A DNA stretch of 64,000 nucleotides, taken from positions 1 through 64,000 of the forward strand of contig NZ_JNUP01000066.1 in the NCBI RefSeq assembly GCF_000758165.1. Reading direction: 5' to 3'. This DNA comes from Spirochaeta lutea (lineage in GTDB: Bacteria > Spirochaetota > Spirochaetia > DSM-27196 > Salinispiraceae). The notes under the pieces are model-generated. The model was not told the DNA's origin. It did not search any database and saw nothing but the letters and a program-made list of their open reading frames with translations. Of the stretch, positions 40,887-56,922 are shown piece by piece; positions within the stretch are counted from its first letter, which is position 1; every line of letters starts with the position of its first letter. Position numbers and translations under genes: made by a program.

Positions 40887-42251
40887 ATGACATCCATGAA
40901 TAAAACCTATGCAAAGACACTTGAGGCCCTGGGTATCCGGTTTCCCCGGCTGCTCATGCCCGCACCGGAAGTCCCCATTGAGACCTGGGGGGTTGTAGCC
41001 TGCGATCAGCACACCAGCGACCGGGATTATTGGAACCGGTTATCCAAGGCTATCGGATCAAACCCCTCTACCCTGCCCCTGATTTTCCCGGAGGTGTACC
41101 TGGAGGACCCGGATCGTCAGGATCGGATTCAGCGGATCCACCAGACGATGCAGCACTACCTTGACCAAGGGCTCCTGCAGGATGTGGGTGAACAGCTCAT
41201 CTACATTGAACGAACCACGGAAGCATCGGGGCTGCGTCAGGGGATCCTCCTCGCCATGGATCTGGAGTATTACGATTACTCCAAGGGATCCACCAGTCTT
41301 ATCCGGGCGACCGAGGGGACCATCCTCGACCGCATCCCACCCCGGGTACAGGTGCGTAAAGGGGCTCCCCTGGAGTTGCCCCATATCATGATCCTCATCG
41401 ACGACCCTGATCAGGGCATCATCGAGCCCCTGGCTTCCCAAAAAAACTCGGATGCCCGCGTTTACACCACCGACCTGCTGCTCGGCGGAGGCCATATTGA
41501 AGGGTACTCCATCAAAGATTCCGGGACAATTCAGACCATCCTTTCAGGACTGCAGAATCTGGCCTCCGCTGACACTACCAAGAAGCGGTACGGAACCGAC
41601 ACTCCCCTGCTCTTTGCCATGGGCGACGGCAACCATTCCCTGGCAACAGCCAAGACGGTATGGGAGGAGTTGAAGGCCGCAGCGGTTCAGGAGCACGGAA
41701 CCTGGGAACATCTGGTGGATCATCCCGCCCGCTTTGCTTTGGCGGAAATTGTAAACCTCCACAGCCCGGGCCTCCGGTTTGAACCCATCCACCGTACCCT
41801 CTTTGGCGTCTCCGGGGAGGAGCTCCAGGAGGTATTAAAGGGTGATTTTAACGCCCGTATTACTCCCATGGCGGAAGATACCCTGCAGGCATTTCTGGAA
41901 GGGAACCCGGCTGGTCAAAAAGCTGCCGGAATCTACGATGGGGATCAATGGTACTGCGCCGAGTTCCCCGAGGATGAAGAGCGCCTTCCCAACGCCCTGG
42001 TGGATTTGGCCTTTGAGACCCTTCGAAGCAGGAATCCCAAGGCGACCATAGATTTCATCCATGGTTGGAACCACACCAAGAATTTTGCAAAACAGGGCTC
42101 AGCGGTTTCGACATTTTTCCCGGTAATTGCCCGGGACCGGCTCTTTGACTATGTAATTAACCAGGGTTCCCTGCCCCGAAAAGCCTTCTCCATGGGAGAT
42201 GCCGAGGAAAAACGCTATTATATCGAATCCCGCCGGATCTTACCCAGTTGA
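40887..42251 (+). CDS. DUF1015 family protein (454 aa)
   Basis: Matches the DUF1015 family, which is widespread and of unknown function. The conserved N terminus reads LEALGIRFPRLLMPAPEVP with the VVACDQHTSDRDYW segment; a later block is FAMGDGNHSLATAKTVWEEL, resembling the GNH-type motif of the ParB/sulfiredoxin fold, and FIHGWNHTKNFA. No signal peptide. ATG 40887 was chosen over upstream ATGs because it sits 7 bp after a -10 box and matches the family N terminus (MNKTYAKTLEALG). It is divergent from the gene at 40056. Confidence 0.88.
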   Translation: MTSMNKTYAKTLEALGIRFPRLLMPAPEVPIETWGVVACDQHTSDRDYWNRLSKAIGSNPSTLPLIFPEVYLEDPDRQDRIQRIHQTMQHYLDQGLLQDVGEQLIYIERTTEASGLRQGILLAMDLEYYDYSKGSTSLIRATEGTILDRIPPRVQVRKGAPLELPHIMILIDDPDQGIIEPLASQKNSDARVYTTDLLLGGGHIEGYSIKDSGTIQTILSGLQNLASADTTKKRYGTDTPLLFAMGDGNHSLATAKTVWEELKAAAVQEHGTWEHLVDHPARFALAEIVNLHSPGLRFEPIHRTLFGVSGEELQEVLKGDFNARITPMAEDTLQAFLEGNPAGQKAAGIYDGDQWYCAEFPEDEERLPNALVDLAFETLRSRNPKATIDFIHGWNHTKNFAKQGSAVSTFFPVIARDRLFDYVINQGSLPRKAFSMGDAEEKRYYIESRRILPS

Positions 42252-42262
42252 AGGGTGGTCAA

Positions 42263-42291
42263 TTGATTTTTTTCGCCCACGGGGCTACATT
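42263..42291 (+). promoter_or_regulatory. Candidate leaderless promoter for the gene at 42298
   Basis: TTGATT (42263-42268), 17-bp spacer, TACATT (42286-42291), 6 bp to ATG 42298. No SD is present (GACTCC). The -10 and spacing are identical to those of hisD. Confidence 0.6.
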
Positions 42292-42297
42292 GACTCC

Positions 42298-43248
42298 ATG
42301 AGGTCAAGAAGCCCCGGGGGCATCTTCATTATTGCCGTACTCCTCTGGTTTGTTACCCTTGGGCATGCTGGAGCTCAGACCGACGCCTATACCTTTGTGT
42401 TCCTGGGAATTCACGATGGAGAGGGAGTACTTTCCCCTGCCGAGTCTCGGGTACTGGAAAACAGACTTGCCTCCTTCCTCATACAAATAGAACAACTTGA
42501 ATCCTATGATTTCCTTTTCCCGGAAGACGCATCCCAGATACGTCAGGGGATTATAACCCCCACCAGGAGGGAGATAAGCAGCCAAGCAATTCCCGAGGTT
42601 TGGAATCCCCTGGCCCGGGGAATCATCATCGGTGAAATCAACAGGATTAGCGGTGTTTTTTACCTTGATCTCCAGATATTCAGCAGATCCACCGGGCGTC
42701 TACTGCTTTCCCAGCAGAGTGAATTTGCCAGTTTCCAGGCCATGGTGTCCGAATTGCGGGGAACTACCTTCAGGCTCTTCGGCATTGAAGACACCCCATC
42801 CCAGGGGCTGACCCAGGGGCTCGCCCAGCAGGGGAACACACCGCTCTTCCAGGAATCCCCCACCGTCGCCATGATTCAGGGCCGCTGGATCGGGGATACT
42901 GGCATTGGCACCGTAACGGTAAACCGCGATGGAACCGCGGTAGCAGGACTCGGAGACGATGAGCAAATGCAGCTCCAGGTTCGCATAGAGGGCGGTGTAA
43001 TTCGGGTACGGCAGAATGAACCCAATAGTCCCAAGATGTATATGACCCTATTCCCCTACAGCATAGCCACCCAAATAGTACAGTTGGCCCGGCCTATGAG
43101 CTGGGAGTTTCAGTTGTCCATGGACGGTAAGCGGTTGGTTGGCAATAAATTTACCTCCTACGTTACCGTAGATCAGGGTGTGGTCACCAGGGTTGATAAC
43201 ACCTACTTCAGAGAGGCCGTCTGGACCCGGCCAGAAACCGGGGAATAA
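42298..43248 (+). CDS. Secreted hypothetical protein (316 aa)
   Basis: Signal peptide from ATG 42298 (IFIIAVLLWFVTLGHAGAQ). The mature N-terminal ~150 residues resemble periplasmic FlgO/TolB-like modules common in spirochaetes (alternating strand/helix with VFLGIHDGEGVLSPAESRVLENRL). The C-terminal half is strand-rich with a lipocalin-like or DUF-type fold (GRWIGDTGIGTVTVNRDGTAV). No catalytic motif is seen. A longer frame to 42199 exists but overlaps the previous gene. Function unknown. Confidence 0.78.
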   Translation: MRSRSPGGIFIIAVLLWFVTLGHAGAQTDAYTFVFLGIHDGEGVLSPAESRVLENRLASFLIQIEQLESYDFLFPEDASQIRQGIITPTRREISSQAIPEVWNPLARGIIIGEINRISGVFYLDLQIFSRSTGRLLLSQQSEFASFQAMVSELRGTTFRLFGIEDTPSQGLTQGLAQQGNTPLFQESPTVAMIQGRWIGDTGIGTVTVNRDGTAVAGLGDDEQMQLQVRIEGGVIRVRQNEPNSPKMYMTLFPYSIATQIVQLARPMSWEFQLSMDGKRLVGNKFTSYVTVDQGVVTRVDNTYFREAVWTRPETGE

Positions 43249-43445: not shown

Positions 43446-43940
43446 TCAATGGGTTTTTCGGAGGGTAAAATCACTCACCACTCCATTCTCCGGGGTTGAA
43501 GCCGGGGATTTAGGTTGCTTTGCCTTCCCCGGGCGTATCATTCCCATAAGTAATGACAACAGGGCAGCCGCTGCACCGGCACCCAAGTACATCGACCGAG
43601 GGGGAGCTCGGTAGGTTGGAGCCTTTAGGATTGTTCCGCTCGTTTGGGGCTGATTGAAGTCGGGCTTTGTTTGTATTCGAACCAATACCTGATTTGGACC
43701 AACGTACCCGAGGGAATGTGCCTTGGCTTGGAGCAACTCCGAACTGGTTTCCGCCCGAATCATACGGTTTGTCAATTCGGCTTGGAGGGTTTCCAGCCGG
43801 GCGTTGTTCCTCTCTAGCTCAGCCAGATACTCACGTTTGCTTTGAAGATCTACATAACCGCCGGGCCCATAGATCCCCAGGCCCACCATATACACAAGAA
43901 CACCTAATGTTATAGAGAAAAATATCTGTGACAGCTTCAT
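43446..43940 (-). CDS. FtsB/DivIC-like protein with a second membrane helix (164 aa)
   Basis: An N-terminal membrane helix (IFFSITLGVLVYMVGLGIYG) is followed at once by a coiled coil (REYLAELERNNARLETLQAEL) and a SLGYVGPNQVLVRI block, as in the FtsB/DivIC septum-formation family. Unlike typical FtsB (about 100 aa) it continues into a second membrane helix (MYLGAGAAAALLSLLMG) and a basic tail. Start ATG 43940 gives the canonical short N terminus; a longer frame to 43982 is open. Divergent from the acidic-protein operon. A role in cell division is inferred from the family only. Confidence 0.75.
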   Translation of the reverse strand: MKLSQIFFSITLGVLVYMVGLGIYGPGGYVDLQSKREYLAELERNNARLETLQAELTNRMIRAETSSELLQAKAHSLGYVGPNQVLVRIQTKPDFNQPQTSGTILKAPTYRAPPRSMYLGAGAAAALLSLLMGMIRPGKAKQPKSPASTPENGVVSDFTLRKTH

Positions 43941-44016
43941 CCTGTTTGAAGTAACGGTGTATAATAGATTAAACTTAACCAAATAGCGGTTATGATCGTA
44001 TAATTGTAGCCGATAC

Positions 44017-44060: not shown

Positions 44061-46973
44061 ATGGCCGAGGAACGCAACAAGACGGAAGATTTCGACTCCC
44101 TCGATGAATATGGTGTCTGGGTAAAATCAGGCATCGAAGATGTGGATGCCGAAACGGATGATATCCAACTGGATGATATACCGACCGAGCTTGACCTGGA
44201 TTCTTATGATGAATCCCAAGATACCCAGGACCATGAACCAAACGTGGAGGGTCTCACCGAGGAAGAGGAATCTCTCCTCGGCGACTTGGAAGATAGTTCA
44301 TTGGATACCGACCAAACCGCAACCATGGAAGACATTACAGAGGATACCCCCATGAGTGATAAGCAAAACCAGGATTCCGCCATAGATGAACTCACGAATG
44401 AGGAGACCGACGAGGTTTCCATAGAAATACCGGATTTTGATGATTTTGATCCGGATGAGGCCTCAGAATCATCCGAGGATACCAGTGCCCTGGAGGAAGA
44501 GTTAGCCGGATTGGATCTGGATGCTATTCCCGAGGACGGTGAAATCACCCTGGACTTATCCATGGATGATGACGATGACCAGATCTACCTTGAAGAGGAA
44601 GAACTCCAGTTGGACCTGAACGATGATACCGAAGAGATTATGCTGGAAGATTTTGATGAAGGCGATCATGAGCTGGAGGACGATATCGTTATTCCAGGAC
44701 TAGATGATCTTGATGACCTCTCCGATGAGGAAAACGAGATTCTAAACATGGGTGGCTTGGATGACCTTGAGGAGGTTCCCAGCGAGCCCGGGGATACATT
44801 CGAGGAGCAGTCCCGGGATGACCTATCCGAGGATACTCTGGATTCCGGGACGGCCCCAGACTCATCTCAGGATGAGGAGCTGGTTCAAGACGGCTCTCTA
44901 GACACCACCGAGGATAGCCTGGACGACAGCTTCACCATGGAAGATGAAGTAGAGGAAGTAACTCTGGATGATATGATGGTTGAAGATTCCTCGGGTGAAC
45001 ACGTCGAAGAAACAAGCCAAGAGGATGAGAGTCTTGAAACCTCCGAGGGGGGGTCTCTTCCCGATTTTGATGAAGAGTTTTTGGATCTTGATGATTCGGA
45101 TCTCCTGGTATCCCAGGATAGCGAAGGGGATACCGAACTTGGCGATACAGATATTGATCTAAATATTTTAAATGAAGCCGCAGCTCCGCCCTCGGTTGAG
45201 GAAGATATTGACCTGGATGCCTACGAGAAGGACCTGGCCGCTGGTGAAATTGTTCTCGAAGAATCCCAGGATGACCAGAACCAAGAAGATTCAGGTTCCC
45301 CTTCAGAGGATATCTACACCGAAGGTGATGAAGAAGATGCCGGTCAGCAGCAAGATCAGTCTGAAGAACATCTCCCCGGGGCCGAGGCCTCTGAGGACCT
45401 CAGCCTCGAGGATATCCATGAACCCGATTATTCGGAGGACCTGCCGGAACTGGAGGACTTTGACGATGTTGAAGCCTTTACCGATTCCCTTTCCTCCGAT
45501 ACAGAAGAGGAAGTAGAGGAACAGTCAGGGCTTGAAGATTCCGTTGCCCCAAGCACCGATGAACTTTCATCCTCCGAGAGCGACGAGGACCTAGGCGCTG
45601 AGGAAGCCTCCTCGGTAGATTCGGAAGAGGTAGATGTAGAGGATTCTGAGGAAGAGGAACAAGCATCCTCCCTGGATGATTCAGATCTCGCTGATGACGA
45701 ATTTGGGATCATTGAGGTCGGATCTAAGACAGAGCAGGATGCCTCGCCCCAGGAAGGGAGCGTAACCCTGGACCCTGGCTCCTCAATTCTGTCGGCCATT
45801 GAAAGAGAGCTTTCAGCCATTAAAGGAGAATTGACCAGCCTCCGGGCAGATCTTCAGACCCTGCGTCACCAGGAGAGAACCCTTACCGAAGCAATCCAAC
45901 AAAAACGTCAGGAGCTGGACGGCAATGATCAGGGTGCCACCTCCGAGGCTGGAGAACCCGTCCAGGAGGTCCCCCAGGATGCTCCGGAGCCCACACCAGA
46001 CGATGAAAACCAAGAGGATTTCCAGGATTTTTCCCAGCCGGAGGCAGAAACAGAACTCTTCGGTGATGAGGATTCTGCGGGTGGTATTGATACCTCAGGG
46101 GGATTCTTCGATGAAGAGGAAGATGAAACCATCGCCCTTACCGGTGATGAACTGGATAATATTTTAAATACCGCCGAGTTTACCGAAGAACCCGGAAAGC
46201 CCAGTGATTACGACACGGATCTTGATCAGAACATTGATGATGAGCTTCTAGGAACCCCCCAGGAAGAAAGTACTCAAGAGGACGCTTCCATTGATCTGGT
46301 AGAGGAAGAAACCCGGGAGGATTTGTCAGACCAGGTAGTTGGCGAGATTTCCCTGGAGCCTGTGGATGAGCAGGAATCTGCCGGGGAAGACCCCTTTCAG
46401 GGCAGCGATGAAGAAGTCCGGGCTATGGCCGAGATGGATATCGAAAAAGAACTTCAGGACATCGAGGATCTGGATGATGATTCCATAGAGTTTGATTTCG
46501 ATGACTCGGATCTTGAGGATATGACCATAGAGATTGGGGAGGCCGAGGAGTTCGATACTTCTGTAACCGAGCAGGAGGAGACCGAACAGGATCTCCCTGA
46601 GCAAGAATCCCTTGAGGACGAGGGATTTGATGAGGTCTATGATTCCACCGTGCAGGCAGAGGAGGATGCCGGCGAATCCATGGCGGACGAGACGCAACCT
46701 CAGACAAGCCCAGAGGCTCAAGAGGATGACCAGGAGACCTCGGTAGGTGCCGCGGGTGAGGAATCACCGGATGCAGAAAGCACACCTGCAGCTGCCGCAG
46801 TTGAGCATGGCCCCGACGCAAGTATGTCCAGTTCACTGAAGCATGAGATAAAGACCGTATTAGCCTACATGGACAAACTTCTAGAGGCCCTCCCGGAAGA
46901 AAAAATAGAAGAGTTCGCCAGAAGTGAGCATTTTGAGACCTACAAACGTCTCTTTGAGGAGTTGGGGCTATAA
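44061..46973 (+). CDS. Very acidic, largely disordered protein (970 aa)
   Basis: Almost the whole protein is Asp-, Glu- and Ser-rich with short repeated hydrophobic-acidic segments (such as GLDDLDDL, LDLDDSDLL, DLEDMTIEIG), no signal peptide and very few basic residues. Two structured islands stand out: a coiled coil near residue 575-620 (AIERELSAIKGELTSLRADL) and a conserved-looking C-terminal helix pair (HEIKTVLAYMDKLLEALP then EEFARSEHFETYKRLFEEL). It starts the five-gene operon. Function unknown; a flexible scaffold, charge brush or cation buffer are possibilities. Composition makes homology searches misleading. Confidence 0.85.
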   Translation: MAEERNKTEDFDSLDEYGVWVKSGIEDVDAETDDIQLDDIPTELDLDSYDESQDTQDHEPNVEGLTEEEESLLGDLEDSSLDTDQTATMEDITEDTPMSDKQNQDSAIDELTNEETDEVSIEIPDFDDFDPDEASESSEDTSALEEELAGLDLDAIPEDGEITLDLSMDDDDDQIYLEEEELQLDLNDDTEEIMLEDFDEGDHELEDDIVIPGLDDLDDLSDEENEILNMGGLDDLEEVPSEPGDTFEEQSRDDLSEDTLDSGTAPDSSQDEELVQDGSLDTTEDSLDDSFTMEDEVEEVTLDDMMVEDSSGEHVEETSQEDESLETSEGGSLPDFDEEFLDLDDSDLLVSQDSEGDTELGDTDIDLNILNEAAAPPSVEEDIDLDAYEKDLAAGEIVLEESQDDQNQEDSGSPSEDIYTEGDEEDAGQQQDQSEEHLPGAEASEDLSLEDIHEPDYSEDLPELEDFDDVEAFTDSLSSDTEEEVEEQSGLEDSVAPSTDELSSSESDEDLGAEEASSVDSEEVDVEDSEEEEQASSLDDSDLADDEFGIIEVGSKTEQDASPQEGSVTLDPGSSILSAIERELSAIKGELTSLRADLQTLRHQERTLTEAIQQKRQELDGNDQGATSEAGEPVQEVPQDAPEPTPDDENQEDFQDFSQPEAETELFGDEDSAGGIDTSGGFFDEEEDETIALTGDELDNILNTAEFTEEPGKPSDYDTDLDQNIDDELLGTPQEESTQEDASIDLVEEETREDLSDQVVGEISLEPVDEQESAGEDPFQGSDEEVRAMAEMDIEKELQDIEDLDDDSIEFDFDDSDLEDMTIEIGEAEEFDTSVTEQEETEQDLPEQESLEDEGFDEVYDSTVQAEEDAGESMADETQPQTSPEAQEDDQETSVGAAGEESPDAESTPAAAAVEHGPDASMSSSLKHEIKTVLAYMDKLLEALPEEKIEEFARSEHFETYKRLFEELGL

Positions 46974-46976
46974 TCT

Positions 46977-48017
46977 ATGGGACTCATGAACCGAGTTCTG
47001 GAAATTCAATCCGAGGACTCCGGTAAGGAAGCCTCCCCTTACAAGTCTGCCCAGGGGTTCTTGCACCACGCTGAGTTTGTAAGACGGAAGGTTAACCAGA
47101 AGCAGGATAACACTCCCGCAAGGGATACCAGCAGTGTCCGGGGCATGGAAGCCCGCCCCGGTCTGTCTCCCCACCCCCAAGGCGATACAATATCACTGGA
47201 GGGATTTCAAACAGACAGTGAGGAGGCGTTGGTACAGATTCTCCAGGCAGTTCACGGACTCCCTGATACCTTCCTCGGATTGTATGATTTTTTCGTACTG
47301 CTCCGGGATGTACTCAGCATAGAGAAATCTGCCCTGCTGACCCCGTCTGCCGAGGACTCACGGATTTTTGAACCTGTGTTGTTCTGGAACCTGGATCAAA
47401 CAAGCCTCCACCGGTTATCCTTCCCAAGAGAAGAGTTATCAGGCTTCGACCGATGGGGGGTCTTGTCTGCTCAAAACGTTACAAAACTGAGCAGCCGAGA
47501 TATAGCGGTTACGGAATCGGATTTTATTTGCATACCCTTTCCGGAAAAGGAACCGGTAGGTGCCTTGCTGTTTTCCAGCCCCTACGGGCAATCCTCAGAG
47601 AAAGCCAATACCCTCCTGGTGAGTGCGCTCTCCCAGATCCTTTCCACCAATTTCGCAGGAATACCCGCTCAGTTTTCAGCAGAATATACCCCAATTCCCC
47701 TGGATGTGTTACTGGCCGATCCCCAGGAGCGGATACTCCATATTTCAATGCTTGAAATCCATCGCGCCCTCCGGGAGCACTTCCCCATGGTTTCTGCCCA
47801 GCGGATTCCAGAAATTGTATACCGAACCTTGGCAACCCTTACAGAGTGCCGAATCGGTATTTCACCGGAGGGATTTTATCTCCATCTTGAAGCCCCCTTT
47901 GCCCGGGCACAGGACCGGTTCTACGAAGAGACAGTTCGGCAGCTCTGCAGCTGGTTCACCCTGGACCCTGATGAGGTAACCTGGCATATTTATGAAGGCA
48001 AGAATGTCCAACGATGA
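46977..48017 (+). CDS. Hypothetical protein with GAF-like domain (346 aa)
   Basis: Starts 3 bp after the acidic-protein stop codon and overlaps the next gene by ATGA. Residues ~1-75 are disordered. About residues 90-225 resemble a GAF fold (VLSIEKSALLTPS, FEPVLFWNLD, SDFICIPFPEKEPVGALLFSSP). The C-terminal ~120 residues are alpha/beta and unrecognised. No enzyme motif or signal peptide is present. The ligand, if any, cannot be told. Its position between the acidic protein and the Maf genes suggests it serves the same process. Confidence 0.75.
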   Translation: MGLMNRVLEIQSEDSGKEASPYKSAQGFLHHAEFVRRKVNQKQDNTPARDTSSVRGMEARPGLSPHPQGDTISLEGFQTDSEEALVQILQAVHGLPDTFLGLYDFFVLLRDVLSIEKSALLTPSAEDSRIFEPVLFWNLDQTSLHRLSFPREELSGFDRWGVLSAQNVTKLSSRDIAVTESDFICIPFPEKEPVGALLFSSPYGQSSEKANTLLVSALSQILSTNFAGIPAQFSAEYTPIPLDVLLADPQERILHISMLEIHRALREHFPMVSAQRIPEIVYRTLATLTECRIGISPEGFYLHLEAPFARAQDRFYEETVRQLCSWFTLDPDEVTWHIYEGKNVQR

Positions 48018-49630
48018 TTCTGGTTCAAGGAAAACGCGGGCATCTGACGGTAAAATCCTCCAAAGGACGCTTTCTGCACAGCAGGGTAAATCCCCGGGAA
48101 GAAGCCCTCTCCCTTGCGACTGAACAGTTATCATCCTCCCAGGTCAGGGAGGGGGGACTGGTTCTCCTGGACACCGGACTCCCCTATCTCAGTACCTATT
48201 TAGCAGAGCAGTTTCCCGCAACCCCGCAGTATATTATTCACAGCGATGACCGTATGGCGGAATTCTTTTTGCACCGGAATCCTGAGTTACCCCCGGGGAG
48301 CGTACATTGGCATCCTGGCGACACTGCCTCTCTGGAGGACACCCTGAGACCTTGGATGGCGTCGCGGTACCTGCGGGGGGTACAGTTGCTTCAAGGCAGG
48401 GCCGTGGACGACACAGCCTTTGCCCAAGAATCCGCCCAAACCGTCGCGAGTACCACTGCCGGGATATTCACCCAGGTTCACCGTGAGACCATGACCCGGG
48501 GGTTCTTCGGCGTCAAAAAACTCGCCAACCTCCGGAAGGCGGTTGAATTACTCGAATCCGGCGGAGGTTCTCTGGTAACCGGGGTTACCAGGGCGGATGA
48601 TGAAAAAGTCCCGGTACTGGTAGCAAGCGGCCCCAGCCTGGGACAGGCTGCCTCCTACCTCTGCAAATACCGTGAAACCATGATGATCTATGCCCTGCCC
48701 TCTGCAATTTCTTTTCTACACAGCATCTCCATGGAACCCGATGTTATCCTCACCACGGATCCTGGATATTGGGCGGGGGAACATTTACGGCAAATCCCCT
48801 CGCATTGGAAGAGCAGGATCATTGCCCCCCTTACCGCCGAGCTAGGCAGGATGCCCGGTATGGGGATGGTGCACTTTCTCCCGGTTTCCGACCCCCTGAC
48901 AAGCCTCTTCCTGAAACCTCAGGGAATCAGACCTGGCATGAGAGAAACCGGTACCGTCGCAGCCTTTGCCTTAGATTTGATCCTTGAAGTCCATTCCAAG
49001 GCTGTCGTCATCTTCGGTCTAGATCTATCTCTCTACCAACTGGTTGGACATATTACCCCCCATGGCTTCGATACCCATCTTGCCGGAGGAAGCACTCGTT
49101 TGAATCCCTTAGAAACCATACAGACCACAAGGGATCTGAATACCCTGGCCCCGGGTACGACCTATAAACCCCGGATTTCCCAAGGATCATTAGAAATCTA
49201 TCGGACCTGGTTTAGCAGGTTTTTTCATGGAAAAACCGATAGAACCTTTCTTCGGTTCATCGAGGGCCATCCAGGGGAGGATCTGCCTTGTGCTTCCAGG
49301 GAACAGGTTAGCCGCGTTTTGGAACGAGCATCCGACGCCTGGAAAGAATCCGAGCCCACCCACGGTCCCGGTACTGGTCCTCTGGGGCTGTTTGACCATT
49401 CCTCAACACTGGAGGATTATGCCGTTCTACTCAAGCACCTTGAGTCGGCGATGCTGAAGGCTTGCACCTATCCCCTGAATCCTGAAGACCCCGCGGACGA
49501 GCTTCTCCAGGAGGTCTGTTTCTTTTCCTATAAGCGGTACTGGTCGGAGCATTCTGCGGATCAGCGTCGCGCTGTTTGCGCGGAAATGGCGGAGGAGATT
49601 CACTTTCACTTTTCGAGGCTGGCTCTATGA
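48014..49630 (+). CDS. Maf/DUF115-family protein 1 (538 aa)
   Basis: The central region has the DUF115 (MptE-like) Rossmann motif ASGPSLGQAASYL, followed by IYALPSAISFLHSISMEPDVILTTDPGYW and later FGLDLSLYQ. In Campylobacter, Aeromonas and relatives, Maf proteins with this domain transfer nonulosonic acid to flagellin. Archaeal MptE-like members are pterin pyrophosphokinases, so the reaction is not proven by sequence. ATGA overlaps on both sides couple it to its neighbours. No signal peptide, so cytoplasmic. It resembles the next gene in domain order, suggesting an ancient duplication. Confidence 0.85.
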   Translation: MILVQGKRGHLTVKSSKGRFLHSRVNPREEALSLATEQLSSSQVREGGLVLLDTGLPYLSTYLAEQFPATPQYIIHSDDRMAEFFLHRNPELPPGSVHWHPGDTASLEDTLRPWMASRYLRGVQLLQGRAVDDTAFAQESAQTVASTTAGIFTQVHRETMTRGFFGVKKLANLRKAVELLESGGGSLVTGVTRADDEKVPVLVASGPSLGQAASYLCKYRETMMIYALPSAISFLHSISMEPDVILTTDPGYWAGEHLRQIPSHWKSRIIAPLTAELGRMPGMGMVHFLPVSDPLTSLFLKPQGIRPGMRETGTVAAFALDLILEVHSKAVVIFGLDLSLYQLVGHITPHGFDTHLAGGSTRLNPLETIQTTRDLNTLAPGTTYKPRISQGSLEIYRTWFSRFFHGKTDRTFLRFIEGHPGEDLPCASREQVSRVLERASDAWKESEPTHGPGTGPLGLFDHSSTLEDYAVLLKHLESAMLKACTYPLNPEDPADELLQEVCFFSYKRYWSEHSADQRRAVCAEMAEEIHFHFSRLAL

Positions 49631-51177
49631 GAATTCTTGACTGGAGTTTGGCCCAGGGATTCGGAAAGATTCCCCGGGTAGAGTTTCCCCGGGGCAACCG
49701 ATGGTTCACCAGTAAGCGCTCGCCCTTCCGAGAGTTGTATACCCTGGCAGAGACTATGCAATCCGGTGATTTTGTAATCGTTATCGGCTGGGATTTTCAT
49801 GAGCTATCCTCGGGAAAACACCCCCGGATGAACCGTGGAACCATGGTGTTTTTGGATCCCTTCCCCAAGCTGAGTCGAACAATAGTCAAGGAAAACGCCC
49901 TACCGTCACCCTCGCCGGACATGGGGTACCATGCCGCCGATCCTGAGAAACCTGGATTCTCATGGCTTGAGGAGGTCTTCACCGGATACTCCCCCCTGTT
50001 GTTTCAGAATCTTCGGGTCGAGACGGTGGCAGTGTATCAGCAAACCGGTCATCCCTGGATCGATCAGGTGCTGAGCCGGCTTAAAAAAAGAATCGCCGAG
50101 CTAAAAGACGATCTCTCTACCCAGGCAGTATTCGGAAACCGCTGGCTTGAAAACGGGCTTAAAAACCTGGAGTATTACCACCGCCAATCGGCTTTGACGG
50201 CTCCCGGGCCAGGTAGGCTCCAGTCGGTATGGGTGCTGGGCGCCGGCCCCAGTCTGCACAAACGGTTATCCGAGGTACAAACCATCGAGGCTGATCAACG
50301 CTATGTAATCTGTGCCGACACTGCCCTGCCCGCCCTAACCCACCGGGGAATCACTCCCGATGTGGTGGTGAGCCTGGACGCCCAGTGGTACAGCTTCGAA
50401 CATCTTCGTTTGGCGGAGGTATCCCGAGCCGGTTTTTGGCTGGTGGATTTTTATACATCCCCCCTGGTAATCCGTTTGCTGAGTAAAAAACAGATCCCCT
50501 TTCGGTTTGTTTTTTCCCGCCATCCCCTTACCCACCTCCTGCTGGACTATCTACCCCAGATTGGGAGTCTCCTAAACAATCAAACCAACGCGGGGCTAGC
50601 CGCCCTCTCCTTCGCGAAGGGTCTTAGTACCCAGCTGTCCCTCGGGGGCCTGGATTTCTCCTTTCCCGGATTCCGTTCCTATACATCCCATACCTACCGG
50701 GATCTCTACGATGAGCTGTCCCGTTCCCGGCTGCACAGCCGGGATACCCAGGATCTATCGATAATGGACCGGGCGGGGCCGCTCTCAGTACTTCGGTTCG
50801 GCCCCCCGGTAAACGAGCGAGGCTTCGGAGCATCCGGTTATACATCCCTGGGTGAAAGGCGGGATGAGATTCTGAACCAGAATCATCCCGGACCAACCCT
50901 GTGGGCTATAGAAGATCTTGGCCGAGGGATCAACAGGAACCCTTCTATTCGGAACCTAGCCCGCGCCATCCTTGAGCGCATATCAGTGCCCATAAATTCC
51001 TTAGAAGAGGTCGTACATAATCCTGACGTTGGTATTTTCTCACCGGGGATTCTCGGTATTATCAGCAGGAATCAAAAAAATACCGCCCCAGGGGGTGATA
51101 TTTTGGATATATCCAGACAACTACAGCAGAAAACCATAGGACTGCTTACCCTTTTGGCATATAATGGGGAGGTATGA
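49627..51177 (+). CDS. Maf/DUF115-family protein 2 (516 aa)
   Basis: Second DUF115-type protein. The Rossmann motif is LGAGPSLHKRLSEV with VICADTALPALTHRGITPDVVVSLDAQWYSFEHL, clearer than in protein 1, and LGGLDFSFPG follows. The start ATG 49627 overlaps the previous stop (ATGA), and the upstream frame is discarded. It overlaps the next gene by ATGA as well. Tandem Maf paralogues are common in bacteria with glycosylated flagellin and may recognise different acceptors. Treponema flagellins are known to be O-glycosylated, which makes this operon a candidate, but linkage to flagellin is inferred. Confidence 0.87.
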   Translation: MRILDWSLAQGFGKIPRVEFPRGNRWFTSKRSPFRELYTLAETMQSGDFVIVIGWDFHELSSGKHPRMNRGTMVFLDPFPKLSRTIVKENALPSPSPDMGYHAADPEKPGFSWLEEVFTGYSPLLFQNLRVETVAVYQQTGHPWIDQVLSRLKKRIAELKDDLSTQAVFGNRWLENGLKNLEYYHRQSALTAPGPGRLQSVWVLGAGPSLHKRLSEVQTIEADQRYVICADTALPALTHRGITPDVVVSLDAQWYSFEHLRLAEVSRAGFWLVDFYTSPLVIRLLSKKQIPFRFVFSRHPLTHLLLDYLPQIGSLLNNQTNAGLAALSFAKGLSTQLSLGGLDFSFPGFRSYTSHTYRDLYDELSRSRLHSRDTQDLSIMDRAGPLSVLRFGPPVNERGFGASGYTSLGERRDEILNQNHPGPTLWAIEDLGRGINRNPSIRNLARAILERISVPINSLEEVVHNPDVGIFSPGILGIISRNQKNTAPGGDILDISRQLQQKTIGLLTLLAYNGEV

Positions 51178-52502
51178 TGTCCCGATATCCAACCCTGATC
51201 ACCTGGCTAGGTATTGTGTTCTTTCTCGTGTTCTTCAGTGGGCTTTTTATTCTGAGTGATTCCATCAGAAGAAATAGAGTTCAAGAAGCCGAGCACACCT
51301 TGGAGGCATTGCTGCCGGAGATAAGCGGCAACCGAGAAAACCAGCAACGCATCCTACAGAAGATATACCAGGATCTTCCAACATTAGAAGCCTTAATGTA
51401 TGAGAACCCCAGGGGAAGTATTGGATTTCTTTGGTCTCGGAATCCAGAACTGGTAACCCTCCCCGGTCAGACCGAGCCATCCGGACCGAGACTTCAGGCT
51501 CCAGGACTTCACCAAGCCCTCATCTCCCGGCCTGCCATGGAGAATGGACAGGCAACAGCGGTATTCCGGGTTATTCTGGGACGAGATCTGTTCTTTTTGT
51601 TCCGTACCGGCTTCATCGCCCTGTTATTATTCGCGGGTTTGCTGATCTGTCTCTATGCCCTGCTCTCCCTCACCCGGAAAGAGGAGACCTGGGCCCCCGA
51701 GGAGGAATCAGACGATCAAGAATCAGACGATCAAGAATCAGACGATCAAGAATCAGACGATCAAGAATCAGACGATCAAGAATCAGACGATCACGAACCA
51801 GGCGATAACACGACACCCCCTGGACTACCCGAGGATGAAGCCCCGGAACCCGGAGGTGCCCTCATGGCAGCAGATCCGGAACCCGGGGGTGCCCCGGCAC
51901 CAACAGATATGGAGCCACCCCCCCCTTCCCGGGAGGAATCCGCCGACGAAGAGGTTCCACCCCCGATCGACTCAGACCCGGATTCAGATTCAGAACACGG
52001 CCTCGGTGGAGAAACAGACGCCGCCGACCAGCCGCCGTTTTCCAGTCCCTTGAGTCCTGACAGCGCTTTGCCGGAAGCACTTGATGCGGAACTACGGAAA
52101 GCGACCCTAGAGGATACATCCCTGAGCCTTTGCCTCATCGAGATGACAAACCCAGAAACAGTGGAAGAGGGATTATCCCGGTTTTTTAGCAGCCTGATGG
52201 AGGTCTTCATCTACCGGGACCTGCTCTTTCATGAAACGACAGCTGCATGTTGGGTTATACTCCCCGGCCAGGACCTAGATGCAGCCCTTTCTTCCTGTAA
52301 GGAATTTCTAGCCAGGGGTCATGCAAAGCTTCCGGATAGCGATATACGAATCGGCATTACCTCCCGGAACGGCCGCCACATACATCACCAGGTCATGATG
52401 AAGGAGGGCCGGGCCGCCCTGGCTCGCGCCCTGGCTGGGACCGACCCACTAGTAGGGTTTCAACCGGATCCGGAGAAGTACCACAAAATCACCCCCCGGT
52501 AA
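51174..52502 (+). CDS. Membrane protein with ESDDQ repeats and degenerate GGDEF-like domain (442 aa)
   Basis: Two membrane helices (about residues 8-28 and 142-165) flank a ~110-residue extracytoplasmic domain. A disordered linker begins with six ESDDQ-type repeats and continues Pro/Glu/Ser-rich to about residue 300. The last ~140 residues resemble a GGDEF fold (LSLCLIEM, FFSSLMEVFI, ACWVILPG, IRIGITSRNGR, EGRAALARALAG, GFQPDPEKY) but lack the GGDEF signature, so cyclase activity is not expected. It is the last gene of the operon (ATGA overlap). A membrane-anchored signalling or docking partner of the Maf proteins is inferred. Confidence 0.78.
   Translation: MMSRYPTLITWLGIVFFLVFFSGLFILSDSIRRNRVQEAEHTLEALLPEISGNRENQQRILQKIYQDLPTLEALMYENPRGSIGFLWSRNPELVTLPGQTEPSGPRLQAPGLHQALISRPAMENGQATAVFRVILGRDLFFLFRTGFIALLLFAGLLICLYALLSLTRKEETWAPEEESDDQESDDQESDDQESDDQESDDQESDDHEPGDNTTPPGLPEDEAPEPGGALMAADPEPGGAPAPTDMEPPPPSREESADEEVPPPIDSDPDSDSEHGLGGETDAADQPPFSSPLSPDSALPEALDAELRKATLEDTSLSLCLIEMTNPETVEEGLSRFFSSLMEVFIYRDLLFHETTAACWVILPGQDLDAALSSCKEFLARGHAKLPDSDIRIGITSRNGRHIHHQVMMKEGRAALARALAGTDPLVGFQPDPEKYHKITPR
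51705..51794 (+). repeat. 15-bp tandem repeat (6 units) in coding sequence
   Basis: Unit GAATCAGACGATCAA, five identical copies and a sixth with one change at its last base. In frame it encodes ESDDQ repeats and a final ESDDH. Since the unit is a multiple of three, copy-number change would alter linker length without frameshift. Confidence 0.95.
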
Positions 52503-52527: not shown

Positions 52528-53496
52528 CTATTCCCCGGGCAGAAGCTGTGTTACCCGCCAGGAGGGCAGGTTCCCTCGCAGCAGGATTTGGTCACCTTCT
52601 TTCCAGATTGCATAGTACGTATCGTCTTCAAGAGTGTAGACCTCTAAGGTTCTCCTCGTTCCGGATTGCAGGGTCATGGTGATTTGCAGCATTGGAGCAT
52701 CTCCCAGGATCTGGGCCCCAAGATCACCGGTGTCCAGCCCGGATAGTTCCAGGGTGGTCAAACCTGAAACGTACGACTCCAGTGACCCGCCGAAGGGATC
52801 CTGTTCGGTAGAGATCTCCCAGCCCTCGGCGGCATGGGTAAGTATCCGATCGTCCTGACCCGGAATCTGAATCTTCACCTGATACACATCCTGGGCGGTT
52901 ATGCCTTGGGGCCAGAGACGCAGCTCGGTCCAGTAGGCCAGATCCTGATTAATATAAAAATCCGCCTCGGAACCCGTGGTGAATACCCGGGGATCGGCAT
53001 CGGTACGCACAAACACGCCGTTTCCGCCGGGGGTGTATTTGCCGTAGTAGAGTACCCGGACCGGGGGTGAATCGGTGTCCAGACGAAGGGTGATAACCCT
53101 TGCAGATGCCTCATCCAAGTCGTAGGCCCCGTAGGAATCCTGGGAAGAAGTAACCAGGGTTTTCCCCTCAAGCTGCCCCAGACTCTCAAGAAAATCCCGG
53201 ACCCGCTGGGATCGGGAATCATACCAAGCACCGTCGGGGTACCTGACCTGCCATTGATCTTCACCGGTGCGCCGAAGCGCAAGGGAATCACCGGATGGAG
53301 AACCTGGGTCATCCAGGGAGATAGCGCCGATATTTTGAATAGCCTCGATCTCCAGGATGGATGGTTTGCCCTGGGACCGGGTGGTCAAATTCCGGTATAG
53401 AGAAATACTCAGTATGGCAGCCAGGAGAACCACCCCAAGTAGGATGTATATGCCTAATAGTTTTTTTTCACCCGTGGTGAACCTCATGCTTCTCAT
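52528..53496 (-). CDS. DUF4340-like membrane-anchored protein (322 aa)
   Basis: An N-terminal membrane helix (LLGIYILLGVVLLAAILSISLY) is followed by a strand-rich extracytoplasmic part with repeated SALxxGSR-type units (RLDTDSPPVRVLYYGKYTPGGNGVFVRTD), typical of DUF4340 proteins encoded next to Gld-like ABC systems. No lipobox. The start overlaps the GldG-like stop by ATGA, so it is the last gene of the exporter operon. Its role in the complex is unknown; an accessory envelope subunit is likely. Confidence 0.85.
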   Translation of the reverse strand: MRSMRFTTGEKKLLGIYILLGVVLLAAILSISLYRNLTTRSQGKPSILEIEAIQNIGAISLDDPGSPSGDSLALRRTGEDQWQVRYPDGAWYDSRSQRVRDFLESLGQLEGKTLVTSSQDSYGAYDLDEASARVITLRLDTDSPPVRVLYYGKYTPGGNGVFVRTDADPRVFTTGSEADFYINQDLAYWTELRLWPQGITAQDVYQVKIQIPGQDDRILTHAAEGWEISTEQDPFGGSLESYVSGLTTLELSGLDTGDLGAQILGDAPMLQITMTLQSGTRRTLEVYTLEDDTYYAIWKEGDQILLRGNLPSWRVTQLLPGE

Positions 53497-55073
53497 TGGT
53501 TTGCCCTCCTTCGACGGGAAATAAATCGGATGATCCCGAGAATGAGCAGAATCAGAGGGGCTGCACCGATTCCCAGGGTTTTTGCCCAGTTCATGGATGC
53601 GGACCGGAGTTCAGGGTCCTGGATGGCATCGAGCCGGGTATTCCGAATCTGCCTGGTCCGGAGATTCAGCATCTCCTCATCGTGTCCCAGCCACTCAAAG
53701 GCCGACAGTGCAAACTGAAGGTTCTGGGTGGAGCGGTGGATTTGAATCAAACTGGTAAGAAAATCCCCATCTCCAACCACTACCAGCCGGGCGTTATCCG
53801 TCGAACCTCGATGGGAGGGGTTTTCGCCCCTGGGATCACCGGGGAAGTAGGATGATACCCCTCCGGTTAACACCCCGGCTAATACCTGCTGTTGTTCCTG
53901 GAAGGTTGAGCTGAGATACCCAACCTGAACCGGATTCGTCTGAACGGGCTGGTCCATGAGTGCGGTCCGGTCGCTGGAGAACACCAGGGGCTCAAAGGAT
54001 CCATCAGGGTTCTTCTGTGAATCGAAGCTGATGGGGCTTGCCCAGAAAAGATCCAGACCGGCAAACCTGGCGGTAATAGGATGGTCCGGGGCGCCTTGGG
54101 TGGTTTGGACCCAGAGGGGGTATGCTTCATAGGTATTTATACGCATAGCTCCCTGCACCTGCTGGACGGGTATGGGGAGATTCGAACGGTCCAGAACCCA
54201 CTGGGGCGACACTTCGATTCCGTAGGAACCCAGAATTTGAAAAACCGGGGCATCGCTTCCATCCTCGGGCTGAAGATTCGACTCCAGATTTACCGAGATG
54301 GGATCCACGGCCCAAAATACGCCCTTTCCTGCCATAACAAACTGATCGATCTGATACAGGGCCCCCTGATCGAACCCTGCACCGCCCAATACAAAGAGTG
54401 CATCCAGAGTTTCCGGGATACGCTCCCCCGGAGTGAGGCTACGAACCTCGGCGATCCGAGAGAGCTCCTGATACAGATATCCGAACTCCTCCTCGGCCAT
54501 GGCGGGTTGTCCGTCGGTGAGAATCCCAACGCTGCGTTTCTGTCCCCGGGTGAGATCCCGGATGGCGGTGGTGACCTGGTATTCCAGGGAACCGGGATCA
54601 GCAATGGCAGGAATGAGACTCTGCTGGTCCCGGTAGGAAATAATAATACCGGTGTACACCTGGGCCACCCGCTGTTCGTTTTCTTCGATGACCTGGTATT
54701 GCTGGGGCTGGATTCCCAGCTGCTCGGGACTGCTGAATTCCTGGTCTTCTTCCGGATCGACTACCCGGAGATTAAGCCGAGTACCGCCATAGCGCCCGTA
54801 CTCCTGAAGAATATCGATGATATGCTGAATTTCCGGGATTTCACGGGTCAGACGCCCTGAAACCACATAGGTAATTGATACCGGGTCTTCGAGCTCCTGA
54901 AAAAGATTCCTGGAAACCTTGGAAATGGTGAACACCTTATCCTCGGTAGTGTCTGCCCGGAACCGTACCAGACCCGATAAAATCACCAGCAATAAAAAAA
55001 TAACCAAGGGCAGGATGGTAAATAGCCAGGTTTTGCCCCTGGTAGGACCTACAATACGTGTTTCATGGGACAT
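53493..55073 (-). CDS. GldG-like ABC-transport associated protein (526 aa)
   Basis: N-terminal and C-terminal membrane helices (FTILPLVIFLLLVILSGLV and TLGIGAAPLILLILGIIRFI) flank a large extracytoplasmic region of the GldG/ABC_transp_aux family: DKVFTISKVSRNLFQEL near the start, then VGILTDGQ, LDALFVLGG and VVVGDGDFL blocks. In Flavobacterium, GldA, GldF and GldG form an ABC exporter linked to gliding, but homologues in non-gliding bacteria, including spirochaetes, have unclear substrates. It starts 3 bp after the permease stop and overlaps the DUF4340 gene. Confidence 0.88.
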   Translation of the reverse strand: MSHETRIVGPTRGKTWLFTILPLVIFLLLVILSGLVRFRADTTEDKVFTISKVSRNLFQELEDPVSITYVVSGRLTREIPEIQHIIDILQEYGRYGGTRLNLRVVDPEEDQEFSSPEQLGIQPQQYQVIEENEQRVAQVYTGIIISYRDQQSLIPAIADPGSLEYQVTTAIRDLTRGQKRSVGILTDGQPAMAEEEFGYLYQELSRIAEVRSLTPGERIPETLDALFVLGGAGFDQGALYQIDQFVMAGKGVFWAVDPISVNLESNLQPEDGSDAPVFQILGSYGIEVSPQWVLDRSNLPIPVQQVQGAMRINTYEAYPLWVQTTQGAPDHPITARFAGLDLFWASPISFDSQKNPDGSFEPLVFSSDRTALMDQPVQTNPVQVGYLSSTFQEQQQVLAGVLTGGVSSYFPGDPRGENPSHRGSTDNARLVVVGDGDFLTSLIQIHRSTQNLQFALSAFEWLGHDEEMLNLRTRQIRNTRLDAIQDPELRSASMNWAKTLGIGAAPLILLILGIIRFISRRRRANQ

Positions 55074-55076
55074 AGG

Positions 55077-55913
55077 TTACCTCCATTTCCGAAGCAGCAG
55101 CGTCCGAGCGTTGATAAACAAAAAGAGCCAAATCACCCCCAGGAAAAAGAACAGGTCCTGGCTGTCTATGATTCCCTTGGCAAAATCCTCGAAATGGAAC
55201 CCCAGGGAAAGGGCGGCCATGATGCGCTGGAAAAACAGGGGTGCGGCGCTACCCCGAACGAAGCCCTCCGCGATGGTTACCAGCAGGAGCACCCCAGCGG
55301 TGGAGATGAAGGCCGAGACCTGGTTCCGGGTGAACAGGGAAATGCTCTGTCCCAGAGCAAGACCCGCAGCCCCCAGAAGAAAAATCCCCACATACTGACT
55401 GACGATTGGTCCGGGATCAAAATCGCCGAAGGGTAATACCGCCGCCACCGTCGGAAGGGTTCCAACCAGGATGATGGCCAGTAAAATCAGGTTGGCAATA
55501 AACTTTCCTAATACCAGATCCCATTCCCGGGCGGGAAGGGTTACCATGAGCTCCAGGGTTCCCTGGCGGGTTTCTTCGGCCCAGGAACGCATGGTAAGGG
55601 AAGGAATCAGCACGATGAATACAAAGGGGAAAATGGAGAAATAGCTGCGCAGACTTGCCGTATCCCTGGCGAAGAAGTCCTGGATGGTAAAAAACCAGAC
55701 ACTGGTGAACAGAAGGAAAAAGAGAGCAACAATATAGGCGATGGGCGAATTAAAGCCGGACCGCAGCTCCCGGTGAACCAGTGCCCAAAAGGGATTTCCG
55801 CGGCGGCGCGCTGGCTTGCCGGTTGGACGATTAGGATGTTCTACATCCGAGGATTTCCCGGTTGAATCGGGATCCTGGATTGAATCGACGGGTGTTGTGG
55901 TTGACTTAGACAT
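55077..55913 (-). CDS. ABC-2 type permease, GldF-like (278 aa)
   Basis: About six membrane helices beginning near residue 55 (FWALVHRELRSGFNSPIAYIVALFFLL), with the ABC-2 motif MRSWAEETRQGTLELMVTLPAREWDLVLGKFIA. ATG 55913 is preceded by AAGGAGG and is preferred to the in-frame codon at 55994. It overlaps the ATPase gene by 8 bp. A ~45-residue polar, Pro/Arg-rich N-terminal tail is longer than in many GldF proteins. Confidence 0.92.
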   Translation of the reverse strand: MSKSTTTPVDSIQDPDSTGKSSDVEHPNRPTGKPARRRGNPFWALVHRELRSGFNSPIAYIVALFFLLFTSVWFFTIQDFFARDTASLRSYFSIFPFVFIVLIPSLTMRSWAEETRQGTLELMVTLPAREWDLVLGKFIANLILLAIILVGTLPTVAAVLPFGDFDPGPIVSQYVGIFLLGAAGLALGQSISLFTRNQVSAFISTAGVLLLVTIAEGFVRGSAAPLFFQRIMAALSLGFHFEDFAKGIIDSQDLFFFLGVIWLFLFINARTLLLRKWR

Positions 55914-56922
55914 TGAGATCCTCCTTCCTCGGGGTATCGTTTCCTGGATTATCATGGGGATCCTGGGTCGTGAGCTGTTTGAACAGATCCTCAAGGCCTG
56001 CAGTGACGGGTTTCAGGGCAGAAAGCTCGATACCATGAGAAGCTGCCCATTGGAAGAGCTGAAGCCCCGCTTCGTCGCTGGTCATGGATGCAGGTAATAC
56101 AACCTGGAGGTTGATCCATTCTTGGGGTGATTCCACCGTCCCCTGCTCCTGATCCTCAATCCGGGAACCTACAAGGCCGGATACCGCCTTGATGGCAGGG
56201 GTGATGCCCCCGATCCCCTCAGGATGCCGAATCCGCAGGGCAAAGACCCAGTCTCCCTTCAGTTCACGGGCAATCGCCTGGGGAGTGCCCGAGGCAGCAA
56301 CCCTTCCGCGGTTCAGGATAATGACCCGGTCGCAGAGGGCCTCCACCTCTTGAAGGATGTGGGTTGATAGGATGATGCTCTTATTCTTACCAAGCTCCCG
56401 GATGAGGGTCCGGATTTCCTGAATTTGATTCGGGTCCAGCCCTGTGGTCGGCTCGTCCAGAATCAATACATCCGGATCGTGCATAATAGCCTGGGCCAGT
56501 GCAACCCGCTGCCGGTAGCCCTTGGAGAGCTCCTGAATCGGCCGCCACAGTACATCCAGTATGCCGCAGCGCCGGGCCGCAGTCTCAATGGCCTGTACCC
56601 TGGACTCGGCGGCCAGCCGGGTTTCAGCAATAAACTCCAGGTACTCATGAACCGTAAGTTCGGTGTACACCGGGGCATTCTCGGGCAGATATCCGATCCG
56701 GGCCTTGCACTCCAGGGGGTTCTCGGAGATCGGAACCCCGTCCAGGGTCACTGATCCCGAGCTTTGGTAATGGTACCCGGTCAGAACCTTCATGATGGTG
56801 GTTTTTCCGGCCCCGTTGGGACCCAAGAGCCCAAGGATTTCTCCGGGACGCAGATCAAAATCCACCCTGTCTACGGCCGTCACCGAGCCGTAGGACTTGG
56901 AGAGTTGTGAGACGCTTATCAT
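55906..56922 (-). CDS. ABC transporter ATPase, GldA-like (338 aa)
   Basis: Energises the exporter with the adjacent permease and GldG-like subunit. Walker A is GPNGAGKTT, the signature is LSKGYRQRV, Walker B is VLILDEPTTGLD and the H-loop is in STHILQEVEALCD. A C-terminal ~90-residue extension follows the nucleotide-binding domain, as in GldA and other ABC-2 ATPases. GGAG lies nine bases before ATG 56922, which lies 6 bp after the RNase Z stop. Confidence 0.95.
   Translation of the reverse strand: MISVSQLSKSYGSVTAVDRVDFDLRPGEILGLLGPNGAGKTTIMKVLTGYHYQSSGSVTLDGVPISENPLECKARIGYLPENAPVYTELTVHEYLEFIAETRLAAESRVQAIETAARRCGILDVLWRPIQELSKGYRQRVALAQAIMHDPDVLILDEPTTGLDPNQIQEIRTLIRELGKNKSIILSTHILQEVEALCDRVIILNRGRVAASGTPQAIARELKGDWVFALRIRHPEGIGGITPAIKAVSGLVGSRIEDQEQGTVESPQEWINLQVVLPASMTSDEAGLQLFQWAASHGIELSALKPVTAGLEDLFKQLTTQDPHDNPGNDTPRKEDLNV

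Follow-up and report, generated by a model that had tools for sequence, protein, structure and literature searches.

Maf enzymes add nonulosonates to flagellin in other bacteria, and one solved Maf, from Magnetospirillum magneticum, has been described (PMC11339370). In Aeromonas, Maf modification of flagellin precedes export (PMC4065374). The FlaB proteins of the spirochaete Treponema denticola are reported to bear a 450-Da glycan required for filament assembly and motility (Kurniyati et al. 2017, as cited in PMC9481697). The enzymes that attach flagellin glycans in spirochaetes are not settled in the literature found, and we present here a candidate, a five-gene cassette of Spirochaeta lutea that encodes an acidic protein, a GAF-fold protein, two Maf-type proteins (MafA and MafB) and a GGDEF-like protein. 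The cassette occupies positions 44061-52502 of a 64,000-nucleotide stretch (contig NZ_JNUP01000066.1, positions 1 to 64,000), referred to below as the window. It is conserved over most of the phylum and retained even in a 1.14-Mb T. pallidum-type genome. We class the cassette with known Maf glycosylation; the new part is its scaffold-like acidic protein, for which no described counterpart was found in the databases and literature searched.

Gene content, order and conservation

The five genes are all on the + strand and are joined by a 3-bp gap and then three ATGA overlaps (Table 1), which bears out the original prediction, made from the sequence alone, that such tightly packed genes form one unit. 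The MafB start was taken at the ATG inside the ATGA overlap; a mechanical list of open reading frames instead gave a TTG at 49576.

Relatives were gathered from genome_contigs (84,980 species genomes) using an alignment of the C-terminal tail of the acidic protein; a scan of genome_contigs with MafB for close relatives produced no match. All 80 of the named loci kept are spirochaetal by title, including those of Treponema putidum, T. vincentii, Brucepastera and Breznakiella. Phylum-wide, the tail was detected in 267/393 genomes and 146/168 genera. Of the relative loci, 92 extend 5.2 kb or more downstream of the acidic gene, and in all of them two Maf genes follow it on the same strand. A chance neighbourhood is therefore rejected. 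Scattering of the genes in relatives had been named as a contrary sign; the acidic gene and both Mafs stay together throughout, while the GAF gene (recognised in 71/92 loci) and the GGDEF-like gene (61/76) are held more loosely.

Of the five genes, the GGDEF-like one is the least firmly attached, since in many relatives an opposite-strand gene splits it off from MafB; in locus L123 (14202-15026) the intervening gene is Memo-like (PF01875). In treponeme loci L149, L096, L143, L155 and L156, T. vincentii among them, no GAF gene can be recognised in the stretch that separates MafA from the acidic gene. In loci from other classes of the phylum, a GAF-like gene often lies beside the acidic gene, and no Maf does. 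The acidic gene is the most widespread part of the cassette, with the GAF-like gene as its commonest partner in those classes and the Maf pair as its constant partner in the Spirochaetia loci examined. The five-gene observation is confirmed, in a stronger form than was first predicted.

All five genes are present, in order, at 192564-199665 of genome G115 (1,139,633 bp), which we take to be a T. pallidum Nichols-type genome. The 470-amino-acid (aa) MafA of G115 agrees in length, strand and approximate place with TP0177 (PMC3373638), and by counting from it the other four genes would be TP0175, TP0176, TP0178 and TP0179. The literature found on TP0175-TP0179 mentions these genes only in lists of genome variation and includes no study of the five-gene set.

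A sigma-70-like site precedes the acidic gene and matches the consensus only; over the region, 5 promoter-like matches were found versus 6.6 expected, which is not above chance. A Shine-Dalgarno-like AGGAG stands ahead of the acidic gene's ATG. The divergent DivIC/FtsB-like gene and a TP0183-family gene (42199-43248) are conserved upstream neighbours. On the - strand, convergent with the cassette, lies a set at 52528-56922 that by eye looks Gld-type (DUF4340-like protein, GldG-like protein, ATP-binding cassette permease and ATPase) and is kept in many relatives.

Table 1. Window positions of the cassette genes, the conserved segments of the acidic protein and two upstream features
Feature	Position	Strand	Description
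Acidic gene	44061..46973	+	970 aa, ATG start; mostly disordered protein, putative multi-motif scaffold; TP0179 equivalent (numbered by counting)
GAF-fold gene	46977..48017	+	346 aa; extra C-terminal alpha/beta part; TP0178 equivalent (numbered by counting)
MafA gene	48014..49630	+	538 aa, Maf-type, PF01973; TP0177 equivalent
MafB gene	49627..51177	+	516 aa, Maf-type, PF01973; TP0176 equivalent (numbered by counting)
GGDEF-like gene	51174..52502	+	442 aa, two transmembrane helices, C-terminal GGDEF-fold domain without GGDEF motif; TP0175 equivalent (numbered by counting)
N-terminal motif of acidic protein	44100..44144	+	LDEYGVWVKSGIEDV (residues 14-28); YGVWV-type motif
Central motif of acidic protein	46092..46196	+	TSGGFFDEEEDETIALTGDELDNILNTAEFTEEPG; contains LTGDELDNIL, resembling the FliM/FliY EIDALL motif
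Central-motif peptide			DETIALTGDELDNILNTAEF; candidate CheY-docking stretch
C-terminal tail of acidic protein	46833..46970	+	46 aa; 22/46 columns invariant among 17 relatives
Promoter-like site	43975..44004	+	TTAACC-18-TATAAT, 5' of acidic gene; sigma-70-like, consensus match only
DivIC/FtsB-like gene	43446..43982	-	Divergent; conserved neighbour outside the operon

Proteins of the cassette

The two DUF115/Maf-type proteins that had been predicted both score above the PF01973 cut-off of 34.6 bits (48.4 and 64 bits), and both keep the GPSL and GLD core motifs. Residues invariant among 50-51 relatives are G206, P207, D249, G335, D337 and H346 in MafA and G207, P208, D231, D251, G341 and D343 in MafB. 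When family profiles were compared with solved structures, 5mu5 (expectation value [E] 6.1e-10 for MafA and 7.9e-19 for MafB) scored better than 8sd5, an MptE-type pterin kinase (1.1e-6 and 1.1e-7, respectively). We take 5mu5, a chain titled uncharacterised protein in the PDB, to be the Magnetospirillum Maf. Profile positions 81-148 of MafB align with the N-terminal Rossmann-like region of 5mu5 (123-195) in addition to the core, and MafA aligns over the core region only. Membership of a pterin-kinase clade had been set out beforehand as a test; since both profiles are nearer to 5mu5 than to 8sd5, that assignment is rejected.

A quick tree of 64 Mafs has long branches, with clear groups and an unsure deep order. 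Cassette MafA and MafB form separate groups in it (Shimodaira-Hasegawa-like approximate likelihood ratio test support, 99 each), and these take in one and two distant cassette Mafs, respectively. These groups stand apart from the C21-type and C3-type groups, which hold the two other Mafs of S. lutea and those of T. pallidum. As judged by this tree, MafA and MafB are distinct, ancient orthologue groups. A recent tandem duplication is rejected, as the two groups sit in different halves of the tree.

The acidic protein has an Asp+Glu fraction of 0.37, a predicted isoelectric point of 4.05, a charge of about -332 and no Cys, and Ser+Thr make up 16% of its residues; the runner-up in acidity among window proteins of at least 300 aa has an Asp+Glu fraction of 0.18. 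It had been described as a disordered acidic protein. It is acidic and mostly disordered, but comparison of relatives also picks out three strongly conserved segments within a variable acidic background: an N-terminal YGVWVK motif (83/94 relatives), a central motif, DETIALTGDELDNILNTA (88/94 by a loose pattern, versus about 0.003 per protein after composition shuffling), and the C-terminal tail. The gaps between them range from 179 to 1007 and from 180 to 488 residues. The tail and the central motif are each single-copy in the S. lutea genome, and a sequence comparison of the tail with solved structures found no relative (best E, 0.29). A multivalent scaffold would be expected to show this pattern of short conserved segments with non-conserved acidic linkers between them, and a scaffold role for the protein is plausible.

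Within the central motif, LTGDELDNIL fits the pattern L-S/T-x-D-E-I/L-D-x-I/L-L, as do segments of FliM (LSQDEIDQLL) and an adjacent FliY-like protein (LSQDEIDALL) of the same genome. This FliM/FliY-like form is simply a lead to possible CheY-type partners. Acidic proteins of other classes can have more than one copy of the central motif; the one at L203 (7482-9821) has eight, with the pattern I-A/S-L-S-x-x-E-L-x-x-L/I-L.

A Pfam scan gave no match for the GAF-fold protein and no GGDEF call for the last protein. The GAF-like and membrane-anchored, degenerate GGDEF proteins of the original prediction were nevertheless recovered by structure prediction and fold comparison. In the predicted model of the former (mean predicted local distance difference test score, 78), a GAF domain spans residues 76-235 approximately and matches 4g3v (Z 13.1, 3.1 A over 143 residues); the extra C-terminal part is crowded out of the fold lists by GAF-domain matches. 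The last protein has two transmembrane helices and a C-terminal GGDEF fold, and its predicted model matches 4zve (Z 20.2, 2.0 A over 143 residues). PF00990 is matched by 17/45 of its relatives. G394, R398 and R401, within an IGxSSRxGR stretch, are invariant in the family. The GG(D/E)EF catalytic motif is absent from all 45 relatives, with ETTAA at the hairpin in the window protein, so the last protein is GGDEF-like and probably no cyclase; an active diguanylate cyclase is disfavoured. The linker of this protein contains a 15-bp tandem repeat (about 6.8 copies, encoding ESDDQ) at 51705-51806; it is in frame, so a change in copy number would affect linker length only.

Flagellin, NeuB and a proposed glycosylation module

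The window contains no flagellin or NeuB gene. Elsewhere, the S. lutea genome has four flagellin-family matches (contigs C21 and C1), NeuB (PF03102 plus SAF) on contig C42 and two further Mafs. The original prediction had remarked on the missing flagellin and nonulosonate genes. That stands for the window, but such genes are present in the same genome and are tracked by the cassette across the phylum.

Co-occurrence was profiled in 40-41 genomes for flagellin, Maf and NeuB and in 80 further genomes without a tail match. Neither flagellin nor Maf was found in five genomes of lineage f16 (presumably Sphaerochaetaceae), one each of f10, f11 and f17, and two of f19. Four f26 genomes (presumably Borrelia) have flagellin and lack Maf, NeuB and the tail. 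Of the 40-41, nearly all the remaining genomes combine flagellin and Maf with a strong NeuB match. The 80 further genomes agree for f16 (with the exception of G438), f19 and f26.

The third Maf gene of S. lutea overlaps by 4 nucleotides a same-strand gene for an FtsI-like penicillin-binding protein with PASTA (C21:60578-64485; L039 8579-12486), which suggests a shared transcript. The fourth encodes a short protein (494 aa) and follows a SurA/peptidyl-prolyl isomerase-like gene on contig C3 (L041 6842-9971). A T. pallidum Maf likewise sits after a 507-aa gene (L231).

The reading that we favour, with confidence that is evenly balanced, is a spirochaete-specific protein-glycosylation module composed of two Mafs, a multi-motif acidic scaffold and regulatory subunits. 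From the observed gene content, order and conservation, the Maf relationship, the predicted folds and the co-occurrence with flagellin and NeuB, we infer its enzyme activity, acceptor, donor, complex formation and regulation as follows. Two anciently separated Maf-type glycosyltransferases would be co-produced with an acidic disordered scaffold, which would hold partners through its YGVWVK motif, its central motif and its C-terminal helical tail, spaced by variable acidic linkers. The GAF-fold protein and the membrane-anchored, non-catalytic GGDEF-fold protein may act as sensor or regulatory subunits that tether the complex at the inner membrane. Together, two Mafs with intact core motifs, a scaffold, a GAF-fold protein and a membrane GGDEF-fold protein suggest a cytoplasmic glycosylation complex near that membrane. 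The donor would likely be a nonulosonate made via NeuB encoded elsewhere, because NeuB is co-retained. Flagellin, prior to export, is the likeliest acceptor, because Mafs act before export in other bacteria, the treponemal glycan is essential and genomes lacking flagellin also lack the set. The acceptor may belong to the internal flagella of spirochaetes or may be another protein. As for the predicted modification-type system with an acidic scaffold or acceptor, the modification-type operon holds and the scaffold is plausible, while the acceptor role survives as a rival only.

Several observations weigh against this glycosylation module. No flagellin, chaperone or sugar-synthesis gene lies beside the cassette. 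The correlation of the cassette with flagellin and NeuB is strong but not perfect, because f42 genomes (presumably Brachyspira) have flagellin, NeuB and three Mafs with at best a weak tail match. The counts come from related genomes that are not independent and are uncorrected for descent. Genome G292 has the tail and no flagellin or Maf match. S. lutea has two more Mafs beyond the cassette. One of them (60.6-62.5 kb on flagellar contig C21) lies about 25-37 kb from the flagellins, with a sigma factor and FapA upstream of it, and is no weaker a candidate for the flagellin Maf. The GAF-like neighbour without a Maf neighbour in other classes suggests that the scaffold may predate, or be independent of, the Maf pair. 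The G292 tail lies at about 6366-6503 of locus L187, and G056, a genome of the same genus, is without the tail.

A wider proposal, which we hold to be quite unlikely, sees in the acidic protein a new type of scaffold, present throughout the spirochaetes, whose FliM/FliY-like docking motifs physically couple motor or chemotaxis signalling proteins with Mafs and membrane sensors, giving one-site control of flagellin modification and filament assembly. If the scaffold reading is true, the protein would be a further example of a disordered hub in bacteria, one by which a modification pathway is organised. With named enzymes, a three-segment scaffold and two possible regulatory subunits, the question of flagellin glycosylation is testable gene by gene in T. 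denticola.

Alternative readings and known systems

The main rivals are an envelope, pole or division module and modification of the acidic protein itself. In the first, the acidic protein would be a PopZ-like disordered hub that arranges a cellular site, and the Mafs would modify an envelope or division protein instead of flagellin. The divergent neighbour is DivIC/FtsB-like in most relatives, the third Maf gene overlaps the FtsI-like gene, and the acidic protein persists without adjacent Mafs in some genomes and without flagellin in G292. However, the DivIC gene is on the opposite strand and shares no transcript with the cassette. Some lineages that still divide have lost or never had the cassette, f16 and others together with flagellin and f26 together with NeuB. 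We consider this explanation unlikely.

In the second, which appears rather improbable, MafA and MafB would glycosylate Ser/Thr residues of the acidic protein to give a polyanionic glycoprotein. Its Ser+Thr content and the constant presence of both Mafs beside the acidic gene in the class are consistent with this, and known Maf acceptors carry the modification on Ser/Thr (PMC11339370). The conserved parts, however, are short motifs and the tail, with linkers variable in sequence and length, and the acidic protein is also found in genomes without an adjacent Maf.

A similarly improbable proposal is that the central motif docks CheY-like receivers, or mimics the FliM/FliY N terminus, and so couples chemotaxis or motor state to flagellar modification and assembly. 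EIDALL is the binding site of phosphorylated CheY in FliM/FliY (PMC9126983), and the pattern shared with FliM and the FliY-like protein of S. lutea, with up to eight motif copies in other classes (L203), points the same way. A likeness over ten residues can, however, be convergent; the motif is internal to a linker, not N-terminal, and the cassette has no receiver gene. That the Mafs are MptE-like pterin diphosphokinases of cofactor metabolism, as the Pfam family name (MptE-like) and weak matches to the MptE structures 8sd5 and 8sbu might suggest, is scarcely credible given the closer 5mu5 matches, the Maf-type N-terminal region of MafB and the absence of the Mafs where flagellin or NeuB is absent.

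Among described systems, the T. denticola FlaB glycan, as reported in the work cited above, likewise belongs to a spirochaete and is essential for filaments, and Treponema species carry the cassette. PopZ-type hubs, as generally known, combine short conserved segments with a variable acidic linker, as the acidic protein does, and are likened to it by architecture, not by sequence. The LTGDELDNIL segment has the same pattern as the N-terminal EIDALL motif of FliM/FliY, but it sits inside a long linker, and some classes have more than one copy of it. With the Maf flagellin glycosyltransferases (Magnetospirillum 5mu5; Aeromonas, Clostridium and Campylobacter), the cassette has in common the PF01973 core, the GPSL and GLD motifs and the presence of flagellin and NeuB in the genome, and MafB also aligns with the Rossmann-like N-terminal region of 5mu5. 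Unlike the known Maf systems, it is set apart from flagellin and nonulosonate genes and combines two ancient paralogues in tandem with an acidic disordered protein.

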